From Chlorobiota bacterium (GTDB taxonomy: Bacteria; Bacteroidota; Ignavibacteria; Kapaibacteriales; NICIL-2), in assembly GCA_026415505.1 (NCBI GenBank), contig JAOAGY010000009.1, forward strand, positions 1-64,000: DNA of 64,000 nt. Reading direction: 5' to 3'. Positions 55,831 through 62,703 of the stretch are shown here, piece by piece. The position numbers were made by a program, and so were the translations under genes. How positions within the stretch are numbered: the stretch's first letter is position 1; the number at the start of each line of letters is the position of its first letter. Below the pieces are notes generated by a model, which saw only the letters and a program-made list of their open reading frames with translations, searched no databases and was not told where the DNA came from.

Positions 55831-56460
55831 TTACGAGAACGCTGCAATGAACTCCTCGGCGACTGCATGCGCGACGTCATCGAGCGCAATCTTTGTGCCA
55901 AGCTCACGCTCCATGGACGTCACATCGCGATCGCGAATGCCGCACGGAACGATGCACTCGAACTGGCTCAAGTCGTTGACGACATTGAGCGCAAAGCCGT
56001 GCGAGGTCACCCACCGCGAGCAGCGAATACCGATGGCGCAAATTTTCCTTTGCTGCTCGACCCATACACCCGTGAGTCCCTCGACCTGCTCGCCATGGAT
56101 GCCCCAGCGAGCGATTGCACCGATGATACATCGCTCGATTTGCCGCACGAACCAGTGCAAGTCCTGACGAAACGCCGTCAGATCGAAGATCGGATAACCG
56201 ACGAGCTGCCCCGGATTGTGGAGCGTCACATCGCCGCCACGATCGGTCTCGACCAACTGGATACCGCGTCGAGAAAGCTCTTCGTCGGTGCAGAGCACGT
56301 TCGCTGCCGATCCGGCACGTCCGATCGTTATCACCGCAGGATGCTCGCATAGCACGAGTGTGCTGCACCGCTCACCGCGTTGGATTTCCTGCACGTAGCG
56401 GCGTTGGCGTTCCCATGCAGCGACGTATTCGATCAGACCCCACCGTTCGACCGCAATCAT
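55831..56460 (-). CDS. lipB: Octanoyltransferase LipB
   Basis: LipB (209 residues) transfers octanoate from acyl carrier protein to the lipoyl domains of E2 and GcvH. The catalytic pair Lys139 (RKICAIGIRC) and Cys173 (VPCGIRDRDVTSM) are present, and the RGGDVTLHNPGQLVGYPI motif is intact. The ATG at 56460 overlaps the uvrA stop. Lipoyl synthase (lipA) is not in this window; an E2 with a lipoyl lysine is at the window's left edge. Confidence 0.95.
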   Translation of the reverse strand: MIAVERWGLIEYVAAWERQRRYVQEIQRGERCSTLVLCEHPAVITIGRAGSAANVLCTDEELSRRGIQLVETDRGGDVTLHNPGQLVGYPIFDLTAFRQDLHWFVRQIERCIIGAIARWGIHGEQVEGLTGVWVEQQRKICAIGIRCSRWVTSHGFALNVVNDLSQFECIVPCGIRDRDVTSMERELGTKIALDDVAHAVAEEFIAAFS

Positions 56461-59273
56461 CGTTTCTTCCCGCCACGACGTGTTTTCGGTTTCGACGGAG
56501 TCATCGTCGCGAAAAAGTCGCGCAGCGCTTTGCCTGTCCAGGATTCCTCGCATGCCGCGATTTGCTCGGGCGTGCCGACACAAACGACTCGACCGCCGCG
56601 TTCGCCGCCTTCGGGTCCGAGATCGATAACCCAATCGGCTGCTGCAATGACGTGCAAATTGTGTTCGATGACGACGATGCTCTGCCCTCGCTCGATCAAC
56701 CGCTGAAAACAACCGATGAGCGTTGCGATGTCGTGCAGATGCAGTCCCGTCGTCGGTTCGTCGAACAGGTACAGAACGTGTCCGGTGGCGGAGGAATCCA
56801 GATACGACGCGAGTTTGAGCCGCTGCGCTTCGCCGCCGCTGAGCGTCATGCTCGACTGCCCGAGCCGTACATATCCCAGACCGACATCTTGCAGCACTTT
56901 GAGACGTTGGACGACGTTTCGCTTGCCCTTGAAAAACTCGGCAGCCTCGTCCACGGTCATGTCGAGCACGTCCACGATGGATTTGCCGTTGTAGAGTATC
57001 GAGCGTGCTTGGTGTTTGTAGCGCGTGCCTTTGCACGCTTCGCACGGCACTTCGATATCGGGCAGAAATTGCATCTCGATCAACACGTTTCCTGCACCCT
57101 CGCAAACGTCACAGCGACCACCAGGGACGTTGAACGAAAAATGACTGCTCGTCCACCCCAGCTCGCGTGCAGCAGGCGTTTCGGCGAACACTTCGCGAAT
57201 GGCGTCGAATGCTTTTGTGTACGTCGCAGGCGTCGAACGCGACGATCGTCCGACCGGCGATTGATCCACGAGCACGACATCGGTGAGCTGATCCAAACCG
57301 CGGATTTCCTGGCAACGCCCTGCTGGAACCGATGCACCGCCGAAGTGACGCTTCGCATTGCCGTAGAGAACGCTTTCGACGAGCGTGCTTTTGCCGGAGC
57401 CGCTCACACCCGTGACGACGACCAAACACCCGAGCGGAATGTCGAGCTGCTCGATCCGGAGGTTGTGCTCGCACGCACCGACGATCGTGATCGCTCGATC
57501 GCTACTTCGGCGGCGGCGTGGCGGTTCGATACGCATGCGTCCGGACAAATATGCACCCGTCAGCGATTCGGAATGCGAACAAATCTCCTCGACCGTACCA
57601 CACGCGACGACGCGCCCGCCGGCTTCTCCAGCACCTGGTCCCATGTCCACAATGAAATCGGCTGAACGAATGATGTCGGGATCGTGCTCGACGACGACGA
57701 CCGTATTGCCAAGATTGCGCAAGCGGTGGAGCATCCCGATGAGCCGACCGGTATCGCGCCAGTGCAAACCGATACTCGGTTCGTCGAGCACGTACAGCGT
57801 CCCGACGAGCGTCGAGCCGAGCGACGTCGCGATACTGAGCCGTTGTGCTTCGCCGCCGCTGAGCGTGTGCGATGTTCGGTCGAGCGTCAGATACTCCACG
57901 CCGATGTCGCACAGCAGTTGCAATCGCCACCGTATTTCGCGCAGCACATGTTCGACGATCGCAAGCTCGGCATCGTCGAGCTGAAGCCGGTCGAAGAAGT
58001 CCCGCGCTTGCTCGATCGTCATGCGCAGGAGTGTCGGGACATTGACGCCACCGACGAACACCTGTCGCGCCGAACGTCGCAGGCGGGAACCCTCGCAGCT
58101 CGGACAGCGCGTGTAACCGCGGTAGCGCGCCAGCGCGATGCGGTTCTGCACCTTGTACGCATGATCTTCGAGAAATTTGAAATACCCGCGAATGCCGATG
58201 AATTCATCGTCTCCTTCCCACAGCCACCGATACTGCTCCGGCGTCAATTTCGAGACGGGAACATCGGTCGGTATGCCGCGCTTGCGCGCAGCAGCGAGCA
58301 TTTCCGCTTGAACCGGATAGTTGCGGAACGGATGTACTGCTCCCATCGCAAGCGAACGCGACCGATCGGGAATGACCAAATCCTCGTCTATGCCGATTGT
58401 CCGACCGAATCCTTCGCACGTCGGACACGCACCGTAGGGACTGTTGAACGAAAACAATCGCGGCGACGGTTCTTCGAACGGAATACCACAAGAGCTGCAC
58501 TCGTACCGTGGCGAATACCAGCGCGTCTGTCCGCTGCCAAGGCGATGGACAGCGACTTTCGTCCCCAATCGAAACGCCGTCTCGAGCGCATCGCCGAGTC
58601 GCATGGCAAAATCGCCGTCATCGCGGCGCACGACCAACCGATCGGCGACAATAGCGGTAGCCGATGGATCGGGGAACGTCGCAGTATCGTCGAGCGGCAA
58701 CACTTCCCAGCGACGAAGATCGACATACCGAACGAATCCGCTCGCGCGAAATGCAGCCGGATCGAACATTCCGTCGCTCGGTACGAAAGCGACGACGATC
58801 CGCTCCCCATCGTCCCACTGCCGAACCTCGTCGGCAACGAGTTGCGGCGTGTCCTTCCGCACACGCTGACCGCACTCGTGACAGTAGGTCTTGCCGATGT
58901 GCCCGTAGAGCAACCGGATGTAATCGTACACTTCGGTCGTCGTCGCGACGATCGAACGCGGATTTCGTGCCAATGGCTTTTGTTCGAGCGCGATCGCTGG
59001 CGGCAAGCCGGTGATTCGTTCGACTGCAGGACGCCCTTTGCGTTCGAGAAACTGCCGTGCGTATGCGGACAGCGACTCGACAAAGCGCCGTTGCCCCTCG
59101 GCGTAGAGCGTGTCGAATGCAAGCGAGGATTTCCCCGAACCGCTGACGCCGGTAACGACAGTCAGCCGATTCCGTGGAATACGCACGCTTACGTTCTTGA
59201 GATTGTTCACCTGTGCCCCGACGATCTCGATCGCTGCGTCGGTGTGCACACGGCGTTGTGTTTTCGTCGGCAT
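56457..59273 (-). CDS. uvrA: Excinuclease ABC subunit A
   Basis: UvrA (938 residues) recognises bulky DNA damage and recruits UvrB in nucleotide excision repair. It has two ABC ATPase modules: GVSGSGKSS in the N-terminal half and [17 protein letters not shown] in the C-terminal half, each followed by an SGGEAQRL signature. The zinc modules are [33 protein letters not shown] and [16 protein letters not shown]. The ATG at 59273 begins the homology ([12 protein letters not shown]). The -7 element TAGTTTTG (59304-59311) is 30 nt upstream, partly overlapping the end of the BtuB-like gene. Confidence 0.97.
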
Positions 59274-59303: not shown

Positions 59304-59311
59304 CAAAACTA
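59304..59311 (-). promoter_or_regulatory. Promoter -7 element for uvrA
   Basis: TAGTTTTG matches TAnnTTTG and lies 30 nt before the uvrA ATG, overlapping the 3' end of the BtuB-like gene. There is no clear -33 TTG. Confidence 0.4.
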
Positions 59312-61240
59312 CGCCCCGCCGTTCCAGCGTGCCCCCACGCGCAGACGCCAGCTTCGTCCGGGCATCGGGAAATTCCGCACGATCGCGTACTGTGCATCGA
59401 ACAGATTGAGCGCATCGGCTTCGAGCACGAGCACGAGTGGTTCCATCGGTAGCCCAACGCGAAGCGATAGATCGAAGGTCACCGCCGGATCGAGCGCAGA
59501 CGACGGTGCGTTGTCGGTCTGTGTGTATCGCGTGCCGAGGTAGGTCACCTGTCCCGTGACCACGACAGCATCCCACAGCCGATGCTCCAAGCGCGCCATG
59601 CCGACGAGCTCCGGAGTGTAGATCACTTGCCGACCGTAGGTAAAGCTCGACCGATCGTCGTAAGTCACGCGCTGGTACGTCCCCGATGCGACCATGCGCC
59701 AACGATCGTCGCGCCAATCGAGCAACAGTTCCGCTCCGCGCGAAAACACACGTCCGGCATTTTGCACAGACCATGTGATCGCGCTTCGCGGCACGGCGAT
59801 GATTTGATCGCGAATCCACAGTGCGAATGCATCCAGATCGCAGCGAAGCGTGCTGCCGACCAGCGACGCACCGAGATTGACATCGAAGGAGCGCTCGGGA
59901 CGAACGTCGGTCGATCCGAAGTTTTGGTAGTACAGTTCGTTGAACGAGGGCGGACGGTAACTGGTACCGATGCTGGCGCGTCCACCGACAGGAAACGTTC
60001 GAGGTAACCACCGCAGTTGCAGCGAACCCGTCACTGCGCTGCCGACGTCCGAGTACCGATCGCCGCGCAGTGCCGACTCGACCGCAACGAGCTGTGCCGA
60101 ATCGAGCAGGTGCGACCAACCCGCCTCGATCGCCGCTCCGAGCTGCAGTCGCTCGGCATACGAGCCTGCCCCGATGCGATAGAGGTTGCCCCTGAGCGTG
60201 TTGAGGTATGCTTCGGCTTTCGGAGCGATCCACCACTCCGACGAGCGCAGCCGCGGCGCTTCGATTACCGACGCAACATCGAACGCCGAGAAGCGATCGT
60301 CAGCGCCGCTCGGTCCACGAAATCGCGCCAGTGAATCGCGATAGTGTTGATCGAATCGCCGCAGCGCAAAACGGAACGTCCAGCGTCGCTGTGACTCCGT
60401 GCCTGTCTCAACACGACCGATCGCGAGCAGTTCACGATCGTCGAGCCGTGCTGCTGCATTTTCGATGGCGCCTTGCAACACTGCACCCGGCGCTCCGCGC
60501 TCGCTGGTGCGACCGAACACAACGAGCGACGTTGCAACCGACGGCAATTGCCACGACCATTGCAGCACGGCACTGCCGAGCAACGCATCGCCGTTGGTAC
60601 GTTCGACGCGTCGGACGGTGCCGAACTCCGAAAACGTGAAAGGATAGTTGCCACGGCTGTACTGAAGATCGCCCGCAACCGAGATGCTGTGTCGTCCGAA
60701 CCCGTGGGCGAGTTCGAATCGCAGCGACCGCTCTCCGAACGCGCCGATACCGCCGACGATCGCAGCCTCGTTGGTTGCTCGGTGGAGCGAGAGTTCCAGC
60801 ACGCCGCCGATCGCTCCTGCTCCCCATGCGGCGCTCCGGCTGCCACGTTCGATCGCGACGTGCTCGACGAGCGACGTCGGGATTTGTCCCAGGTCCACAA
60901 GACCATTGGCTGCGACGTTGAGGCGAATGCCGTCGAGCACGACGACCGTATGCGTTGCAGATGCTCCCCGCAGCGAGACCGTTTTCAATCCGCCCAAGCC
61001 CCCGTAGTTCCGCACAAAGACTCCCGGCATCGCCTGCACGGCATCGCCGACGGTCGTAGCCGGCAATTGCACAAGCTCGTTCCGGTTCAGCTCGGCACGC
61101 GGCACTGCATAGACGACGCGACGAAGCGAATCCTCGACGACGACAGGGCGAAACACGTAGCGGACAGAATCCCCGCGCTGTGCGAAAAGATGGGCAGTCG
61201 CAATCGCCAGCGCGAGGACCTGTCCACTCCACGTTCTCAT
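59309..61240 (-). CDS. btuB: TonB-dependent receptor, BtuB-like
   Basis: The 643-residue protein has a signal peptide (1-20), a plug domain ([37 protein letters not shown]) and a C-terminal barrel ending VGARWNGGA with aromatic-rich strands. It resembles the BtuB cobalamin receptor family in size and plug pattern. The ligand is inferred chiefly from context: the gene lies 16 nt after a propeller lipoprotein and both follow a cobalamin riboswitch. It would import B12 across the outer membrane with TonB-ExbBD energy; no tonB, btuF or btuCD is in the window. Confidence 0.85.
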
Positions 61241-61256
61241 CGCTCGATTAGCCGCG

Positions 61257-62348
61257 TCAGTACAGAACCGCTCGCACTGGTGCAACGCCGCACTCGTACT
61301 CACGCAGAACTTGACCGCTCGAGCTCAGCACAATCACACGACCATTGCTTTGATAGTCGCGGGCATCGAATAGCACTATCGAGCCATCGCGCCGGTTGAA
61401 TACGAAACCGCTCGGTGTTGTGCCCGTCGGCAGTGGAATGCTCGTCGGATTGACCGTCTGTTGCGACACGTCGAAGCGAAGAATGTTCTTTGCGCTGTAA
61501 ATGGCTGGGTCGTAATCGAACGCATAGAGCGAGCCGCGATAGAACTGCAACGATCCGCCGCAACGCAGTCGCCAGCGCCGGAGCTCCTGGTAGGTCTCGG
61601 CGTCGTACTCGACGATACCTTGCAGCGAATCGGGCTGGCTGTAGATGTGCTGATAGAAGGCATAGAGCCGCTTGCCATCGTCGGACAGCACAAGCTCGCG
61701 CACGTTCGGTCCGGCATTCAGGTAGCGCTCGACTTGCCTGGTGGTGAGATTGACAACCGCGATTGTGCCCGCATGTGGCTCGCCTTGCCGCAAGTCGCCA
61801 AAGCCACTGTTGGCAACGAACGCGTAGTTGCCACGCACGACGACACCTTCGGTCGCAGGACCTGTGGTGATCGTCGTCACCAGTTGGATCGTCGTCGGAT
61901 CGAAGATCGCGATGCCGTCGCCGTTGGTCGTCGTCACAACGCCGAGCGTCGGCGATACGATCGTGATTCGCCACGGCTCGCTTTGTCCGGTGAATTGAAT
62001 CCTACCGACCGATTTGCCTGTGCGAATATTGATCGCTTCGATGGTTTTCGAGGTCGTCACGGTGATGAAAGCCGTGTCGCCTTTGAGCGCGACGTCGTTG
62101 GCTATCGCGCCGAGTTTCTGTCCGTTGTTGGCTGCACCGAACCAATCGAGATCCACTGCACCGGTGCGAAAGTTTATGCGCGTCAAGCTGGCATTGTCTT
62201 GCCCGAAAGTTCCTTGATTGACCACAAGAGCAACGCTATCGGCAGGAGTCGGTTCTGGGGTCGGTTCCGTCGTTGTGTTGGACCCACATGCAGACAGTAC
62301 AAGCAGCATCGCTGCAACGACGAGCAATCGAAGATGGTGCAAACGCAT
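61257..62348 (-). CDS. btuG: YncE-type beta-propeller lipoprotein, BtuG-like
   Basis: The 363-residue lipoprotein has the lipobox LSAC (Cys21) followed by a Thr/Pro-rich spacer, then YncE-like propeller repeats (VNQGTFGQDNASLTRINFRTG, AFITVTTSKTIEAINIRTGKSVG, GIAIFDPTTIQLVTTI, AFVANSGFG, TIAVVNLTTRQVERYL). In Bacteroides, the seven-bladed propeller lipoprotein BtuG sits on the cell surface over BtuB and captures B12. The order here (propeller, then BtuB, both behind a cobalamin riboswitch) is the same, so BtuG function is proposed. A strong ribosome-binding site, GGAGG, is 4 nt before the ATG. Confidence 0.8.
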   Translation of the reverse strand: MRLHHLRLLVVAAMLLVLSACGSNTTTEPTPEPTPADSVALVVNQGTFGQDNASLTRINFRTGAVDLDWFGAANNGQKLGAIANDVALKGDTAFITVTTSKTIEAINIRTGKSVGRIQFTGQSEPWRITIVSPTLGVVTTTNGDGIAIFDPTTIQLVTTITTGPATEGVVVRGNYAFVANSGFGDLRQGEPHAGTIAVVNLTTRQVERYLNAGPNVRELVLSDDGKRLYAFYQHIYSQPDSLQGIVEYDAETYQELRRWRLRCGGSLQFYRGSLYAFDYDPAIYSAKNILRFDVSQQTVNPTSIPLPTGTTPSGFVFNRRDGSIVLFDARDYQSNGRVIVLSSSGQVLREYECGVAPVRAVLY

Positions 62349-62376
62349 AAGTCCTCCGAAGAAAGTTGAACATATC

Positions 62377-62394
62377 CACGTGCGCAAGCACATG
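62377..62394 (-). promoter_or_regulatory. Leader hairpin before btuG-like start
   Basis: CATGTGC and GCACGTG form a 7-bp stem with a 4-nt loop about 30 nt upstream of the ATG and 20 nt before the GGAGG. It may be part of the riboswitch expression platform, since no intrinsic terminator is visible in the leader. This is a weak proposal. Confidence 0.35.
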
Positions 62395-62519
62395 GCTTAC
62401 ACTCGATCGAAAAGGATGAAAGAGAACTCCAGCGTTTGCTCTGCGGGGCGAGAGCGTGCGGGAGCGTCTCTCTCATCGCGCTGTGTGCGCAGCGCTGTAC
62501 GAGCGTACCGATGAGCATC

Positions 62520-62690
62520 GCAGGCAGGTCTTCCGGCTTCGGGGTCATCCTCGGCGTTCGCCTTCCCACAGCACGGTGGCTGCAGTGGCACGTGTGAACG
62601 CGTCGTCGCCCGTTACGGCGGCGCAACCGCGCAGGATTTGCACCTGCTTCCCTATTCTCCCGCGTTTCGAGCGGGCACCTGCGATGAACG
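62520..62690 (-). ncRNA. Cobalamin riboswitch
   Basis: Reading the minus strand, the canonical cobalamin-element pieces occur in order: GCAGGTGCCC (start of P1/P2), AATAGGGAAGCAGGTGCAAATCCTGC, GCCGCCGTAACGG, GCCACTG, TGGGAAGGCG and finally GAAGCCGGAAGACCTGCC (the B12-box end, 62523-62540). The 5' GCAGGT pairs with the 3' ACCTGC to close P1. A -7-like element (TATTTTCG, 62696-62703) is just upstream. The RNA leads into the btuG-like and btuB-like genes, so adenosylcobalamin should repress them. The leader between aptamer and ATG is about 170 nt. Confidence 0.92.
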
Positions 62691-62695
62691 CACTG

Positions 62696-62703
62696 CGAAA
62701 ATA
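62696..62703 (-). promoter_or_regulatory. Candidate -7 element for riboswitch leader
   Basis: TATTTTCG differs from TAnnTTTG at one base and lies just before the 5' end of the riboswitch aptamer, where transcription should begin. No -33 TTG is visible. Confidence 0.4.

Follow-up and report, generated by a model that had tools for sequence, protein, structure and literature searches.

A predicted BtuG-BtuB cobamide capture operon under a cobalamin riboswitch in a Candidatus Kapabacteria bacterium

Background

The closest described counterparts of the locus analyzed here are BtuG1, BtuG2 and BtuG3 of Bacteroides thetaiotaomicron (PDB 8ptd, 8bmy and 8okv), propeller lipoproteins that are likewise encoded beside btuB under a cobalamin riboswitch (PMC6143338, PMC10404256). 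Published work associates the family with Bacteroidetes and sees it as a response to life in the crowded gut (PMC6143338, PMC10404256). BtuG2 carries a net charge of -18, and the EL8 aromatic residue of the partner receptors (Tyr538 in BtuB3, Trp in BtuB1, Phe in BtuB2) is thought to help dislodge B12 (PMC10404256). The loci of B. thetaiotaomicron also encode accessory B12 binders, namely BtuH (7biz; the H domain of 8blw_B) and BtuK1 (9s6c), the latter also a propeller. More recently, the case has been made from DUF4465 (BtuJ), an unrelated jelly roll fold, that bacteria outside the gut have dedicated B12 scavengers as well (PMC13398666, 2026). A search of a literature library for BtuG in Kapabacteria found no paper.

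Results and Discussion

A riboswitch-btuG-btuB locus outside the gut

The window analyzed here is a 64,000-nucleotide stretch of a contig from a Candidatus Kapabacteria metagenome-assembled genome (MAG) of 2.29 Mb that is 99% complete. Its minus strand carries, in this order, a riboswitch, btuG and btuB, followed by uvrA:

62506-62697, minus strand: cobalamin riboswitch aptamer, RF00174 (111.4 bits, E 4.5e-27)
62349-62505 (157 nt), minus strand: leader with a putative expression platform and a Shine-Dalgarno-like GGAGGA (from sequence, genus alignment and fold)
61257-62348, minus strand: btuG (P0001), 363 aa, seven-bladed-type propeller lipoprotein, DUF5074 (PF16819)
59309-61240, minus strand: btuB (P0002), 643 aa, TonB-dependent cobamide receptor with a TonB-box-like PVVVED
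56457-59273, minus strand: uvrA, starting 35 nt after btuB

The original prediction, made from the letters alone, placed a cobalamin riboswitch at 62520-62690, ahead of a lipoprotein with a lipobox and, 16 nt further on, a BtuB-like receptor, and all three elements are borne out. The RF00174 match is full-length (model positions 1-189 of 189) and, at 111.4 bits, lies far above the gathering threshold of 31.5; it is the single copy in a scan of the whole genome; the lipobox of P0001 reads LSAC, with the cysteine at position 21; and P0002 starts 16 nt after the btuG stop, on the same strand. The btuG reading frame begins with ATG behind the GGAGGA motif, and the leader between the aptamer and btuG folds into strong hairpins that are partly conserved across the genus. 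A scan found neither an intrinsic terminator on the minus strand of the leader nor a consensus promoter.

Four further genomes of the genus, among them the two single-contig MAGs KatS3mg040 and KatS3mg039, repeat the riboswitch-btuG-btuB order, as does another genus in the family, and this recurrence excludes a chance join in the assembly. The uvrA gene follows btuB in a sister genome, too (locus L093 of G209); it is probably an incidental neighbor or a case of read-through, and could come partly under riboswitch control.

The propeller lipoprotein belongs with BtuG

The lipobox cysteine of P0001 is invariant in alignments of 28 and 37 homologs. No Bacteroides-type charged export signal stands straight after the cysteine (CGSNTTTEPTPEP), and the Bacteroides rule may not suit this class. 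The best sequence matches of P0001 in the PDB (phmmer) are BtuG1 (4.8e-21), then BtuG3 and BtuG2, with 24-27% identity to BtuG1 and BtuG3 of B. thetaiotaomicron, and there are weak matches to the NCBIfam models YncE and PQQ_ABC_repeats, far under their cut-offs.

An AlphaFold model built on an alignment of 37 homologs reached a pLDDT of 92.2 (the single-sequence model, with a pLDDT of 44, was unusable). The original prediction had proposed to compare the propeller with BtuG structures, and in a Foldseek search of the PDB the model indeed matches BtuG before any other propeller: ranks 1 to 16 go exclusively to BtuG chains (E 1e-24 to 2e-19); below them come a surface-layer propeller from an archaeon (8e-14), BtuK1 shortly thereafter (5e-13) and E. 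coli YncE (4e-10). The VIA Z scores are 36-40 for the BtuG chains and 33.4 for the next best structure.

Clustering with YncE proteins unrelated to B12 would have spoken against the original prediction; in the tree, P0001 groups with propellers that are linked to BtuB and riboswitches. It nests inside a clade of Kapabacteria BtuGs (support 99/96), next to a clade (97/91) that comprises BtuGs from other classes, including BtuG1 and BtuG3 of B. thetaiotaomicron, and also takes in the three generic propellers, on a long branch; propellers with type IX secretion system (T9SS) tails lie outside both clades (100/100). This topology fits vertical descent of BtuG from early in the phylum; a transfer of BtuG remains compatible with the tree, because some of the families assigned to the same class fall in the other clade.

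A second propeller gene, of about 430-510 aa, occurs in the genus, both in the host genome (L041, on G000:C29) and in another member of the genus (L060, in G043); these propellers have no riboswitch or btuB nearby and are weakly similar to Cytochrom_D1. Three plasmid records of Bacteroides finegoldii and Phocaeicola massiliensis contain BtuG/DUF5074 homologs with 26-27% identity to P0001, and B12-capture genes may thus travel on plasmids in the gut. Finally, two records whose titles name Armatimonadetes bacterium SJ842 and a Melioribacter roseus MAG (L165, L172) contain Kapabacteria-type BtuG genes; mislabelled bins seem likelier here than transfer.

The receptor resembles lid-carrying BtuBs

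P0002 contains the Plug (9e-20) and TonB-dependent barrel (2e-22) domains, and its best PDB matches are BtuB1 of the BtuB1G1 complex (3.3e-43; PDB 8blw), followed by BtuB3, BtuB2 and E. coli BtuB. The top family model is the NCBIfam vitamin B12 receptor (TonB-B12 equivalog), with 136 bits against a cut-off of 600, and the sequence is divergent from BtuB1, with which P0002 shares both domains, the EL8 tryptophan and the C-terminal motif NFPMPGRS. In the phmmer and MAFFT alignments, the EL8 residue of P0002, Trp490, is aligned with Tyr538 of BtuB3 and the Trp of BtuB1; tryptophan occupies this column in 35 of the 53 aligned receptors. By its sequence affinities, P0002 is assigned to the lid-carrying type of BtuB.

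A partly altered predicted cobamide pocket

A comparison with the named BtuG2 residues, which are a partial set of the hydrogen-bonding residues, shows that the equivalents of Tyr239 and Tyr335 are tyrosines in P0001 as well, whereas Glu55 is replaced by Gln, Trp194 and Tyr316 by Ser, and Trp272 falls in a gap. At the Tyr316 position, the sister genomes have Asn where P0001 has Ser. The Gln and Asn/Ser states at the Glu55 and Tyr316 positions are specific to the family to which the window belongs, whereas most Kapabacteria have Glu and Tyr. BtuG1 itself has Ser and Phe at the Trp194 and Tyr316 positions, and its structure (8ptd) contains cyanocobalamin. The N-terminal loop equivalent to Asn54-Thr64 of BtuG2 (N-x-G-x-F...N-A-S/T) is largely kept in P0001, and G46, N52, N180, S181, G182 and N215 are nearly invariant among the homologs. 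The net charge of mature P0001 is about -3. Given the changed pocket positions and the weaker negative charge, the affinity of P0001 may differ from that of BtuG2.

The host as a likely cobamide scavenger

NCBI taxonomy places Kapaibacterium within the phylum Bacteroidota, in the class Eximiradiia. The nearest loci come from MAGs titled Candidatus Kapabacteria, Kapaibacterium or Chlorobiota. Some isolate names among these relatives (KatS3mg040, KatS3mg039, SKYG14, J074 and SKW269) presumably denote a hot-spring origin, and the host, a free-living bacterium, is probably a thermophile or hot-spring organism. The titles of MAGs from the wider order, as read, suggest groundwater, lakes, reactors and deep-sea vents, and none is titled gut.

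Among the B12-dependent enzymes, the host genome encodes methylmalonyl-CoA mutase (1119 bits) and a MetH with corrinoid and activation domains; a PduO gene is present, too. A search of the host genome for CbiC found none, so that, with this one enzyme of the pathway covered, the host looks like a cobamide scavenger. No FecCD/BtuC permease was found in six genomes of the genus, including the single-contig ones; the host genome contains one BtuF-like protein (G000:C13:65196-65882).

BtuG loci across the order and phylum

A BtuG homolog is present in 95 of the 99 sampled genomes of the host's order, and a cobalamin riboswitch in 83. Outside the order, we selected 21 loci by propeller similarity alone; all 21 include a cobalamin riboswitch, and in 19 a BtuB-like receptor is encoded beside the propeller. 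Within the order, most of the relatives that were read have no riboswitch directly ahead of the propeller. The fullest arrangement, riboswitch-Y-BtuB-X-BtuG (L027, L102, L103, L104, L106 and L131), includes two additional genes that we denote X and Y; in one family (f3), the riboswitch stays with Y and BtuB-X-BtuG is found elsewhere, and in the family of the window the locus is stripped to riboswitch-BtuG-BtuB. The pairing of btuG with btuB is kept across families even though the gene order changes.

Gene Y encodes a BtuG-like propeller, mostly with a T9SS tail, and its profile matches BtuG1 best (8.9e-19). We considered Y as a BtuK homolog and rejected this assignment: the profile favors BtuG1 (9e-19), and there is no BtuK chain among the 60 matches listed. 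A riboswitch lies directly ahead of secreted Y in 11 loci (L061, L098, L102, L103, L106, L113, L118, L121, L124, L125 and L126). From these sequences, Y is apparently a B12-regulated extracellular protein, so far undescribed.

Gene X is located between BtuB and BtuG in L024, L027, L030, L034, L102, L104, L106 and L131, and also in L037, L043, L045 and L053. Its product has a T9SS tail, the only part assigned by Pfam, and a core that, as a 20-sequence profile, matches the BtuH domain of BtuG1 (4.6e-4) and, weakly, BtuH2 (0.16); a profile of only 5 sequences gave no significant match to BtuH. X also matches the LIC_13355 lipoprotein family (4e-10). Some f3 genomes encode X as an in-frame fusion with a DUF5522 domain at the N terminus, which has a CCGN-CRHCP motif (L024:3590-4648, L029:6047-7087 and L026). 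The riboswitch-less BtuB-X-BtuG loci of f3 had raised the suspicion of a ligand other than B12, which we set aside because other families have one riboswitch-led cluster and X resembles BtuH.

Compared with the three rich loci of B. thetaiotaomicron, P0001 comes from a free-living host with a single, minimal locus, from which BtuH and BtuK1 are absent and in which DUF4465/BtuJ was not found. The Kapabacteria X and most Y proteins have T9SS sorting tails, in contrast to the lipoboxes of BtuH and BtuK1 in B. thetaiotaomicron. It is conceivable, as a tentative proposal that we regard as somewhat less probable than its negation, that a more extensive extracellular B12-scavenging chain is built around the BtuBG pair in Kapabacteria, in which riboswitch-controlled, T9SS-secreted Y and T9SS-delivered, BtuH-like X would pass cobamide to the BtuG lid, and that the genus of the window lost both and compensates with a retuned pocket (Gln45, Ser/Asn313).

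Probable function of the locus and competing interpretations

The riboswitch score, the Foldseek ranking and the grouping in the tree jointly support the BtuG-BtuB reading of the original prediction, and we consider it very probable that this free-living and probably thermophilic species of Ca. Kapabacteria captures cobamides with a BtuG-BtuB operon, where cobamide binding by P0001 is inferred from fold, family and partner. Under low intracellular cobamide, the riboswitch would permit expression of btuG and btuB. BtuG would then be held at the outer membrane by its lipid anchor, form a propeller lid over BtuB and, as its fold, family and partner suggest, bind cobamide at the center of the propeller face, from which EL8 of BtuB, given its conserved aromatic residue, may dislodge the vitamin and push it into the TonB-driven barrel. 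The cobamide would be adenosylated by PduO for methylmalonyl-CoA mutase and used unadenosylated by MetH.

The same architecture could in principle serve another ligand, such as a metallophore, heme or a cobalt complex, taken up by a propeller lid and a TonB receptor that happen to be under a cobalamin riboswitch. The altered equivalents of Glu55 and Tyr316 in the genus of the window, the net charge far less negative than that of BtuG2, and the many same-order relatives in which the riboswitch does not adjoin the gene are all compatible with such a ligand; yet P0002 is most closely related to the three BtuBs with BtuG lids, followed by E. coli BtuB, relatives of the propeller are found under cobalamin riboswitches throughout the phylum sample, five loci of the order (L102, L103, L104, L106 and L131) have a riboswitch upstream of a cluster of BtuB, BtuH-like X and BtuG, and the host genome has B12 enzymes and no CbiC, so that we regard this interpretation as quite improbable. 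We assign a still lower probability to the view that P0001 is an ordinary YncE-type periplasmic propeller that lies between the riboswitch and btuB and has no role in B12 uptake. The weak, far sub-threshold matches to the YncE and PQQ_ABC_repeats models are in its favor, as is the propeller without B12 context in the same genome (L041), but in Foldseek the E values of BtuG chains surpass that of E. coli YncE by 14 orders of magnitude, the tree sets the genus's own generic propellers (L041 and L060) apart as a group with a long branch, and the pairing with btuB survives the change of gene order across families.

Implications

We regard the BtuG-BtuB pair in Kapabacteria as a further member of an already known kind of system, accompanied in relatives by what appears to be a T9SS-linked extension that is so far unstudied. 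The original prediction further held that, if BtuG exists in this lineage, B12 capture of the piracy type is older or more widespread than its gut setting suggests. The presence of the locus in a free-living order breaks the link with the gut; Kapaibacterium still falls inside Bacteroidota in the NCBI taxonomy, and therefore the published restriction to Bacteroidetes remains intact. The term piracy does not carry over, as taking B12 from intrinsic factor is a matter of the gut host and is not implied here. On the practical side, the BtuG of a hot-spring organism may serve as a stable reagent for corrinoid quenching, for which protein stability is a stated limit (PMC13374852).

For the biology of the family, the salient observation is its distribution, in nearly all sampled genomes of a free-living order and under riboswitches in other classes. 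This distribution raises the likelihood that uptake of B12 with the help of a lid is ancient in the phylum, and that the gut lineages received it by inheritance and built on it.
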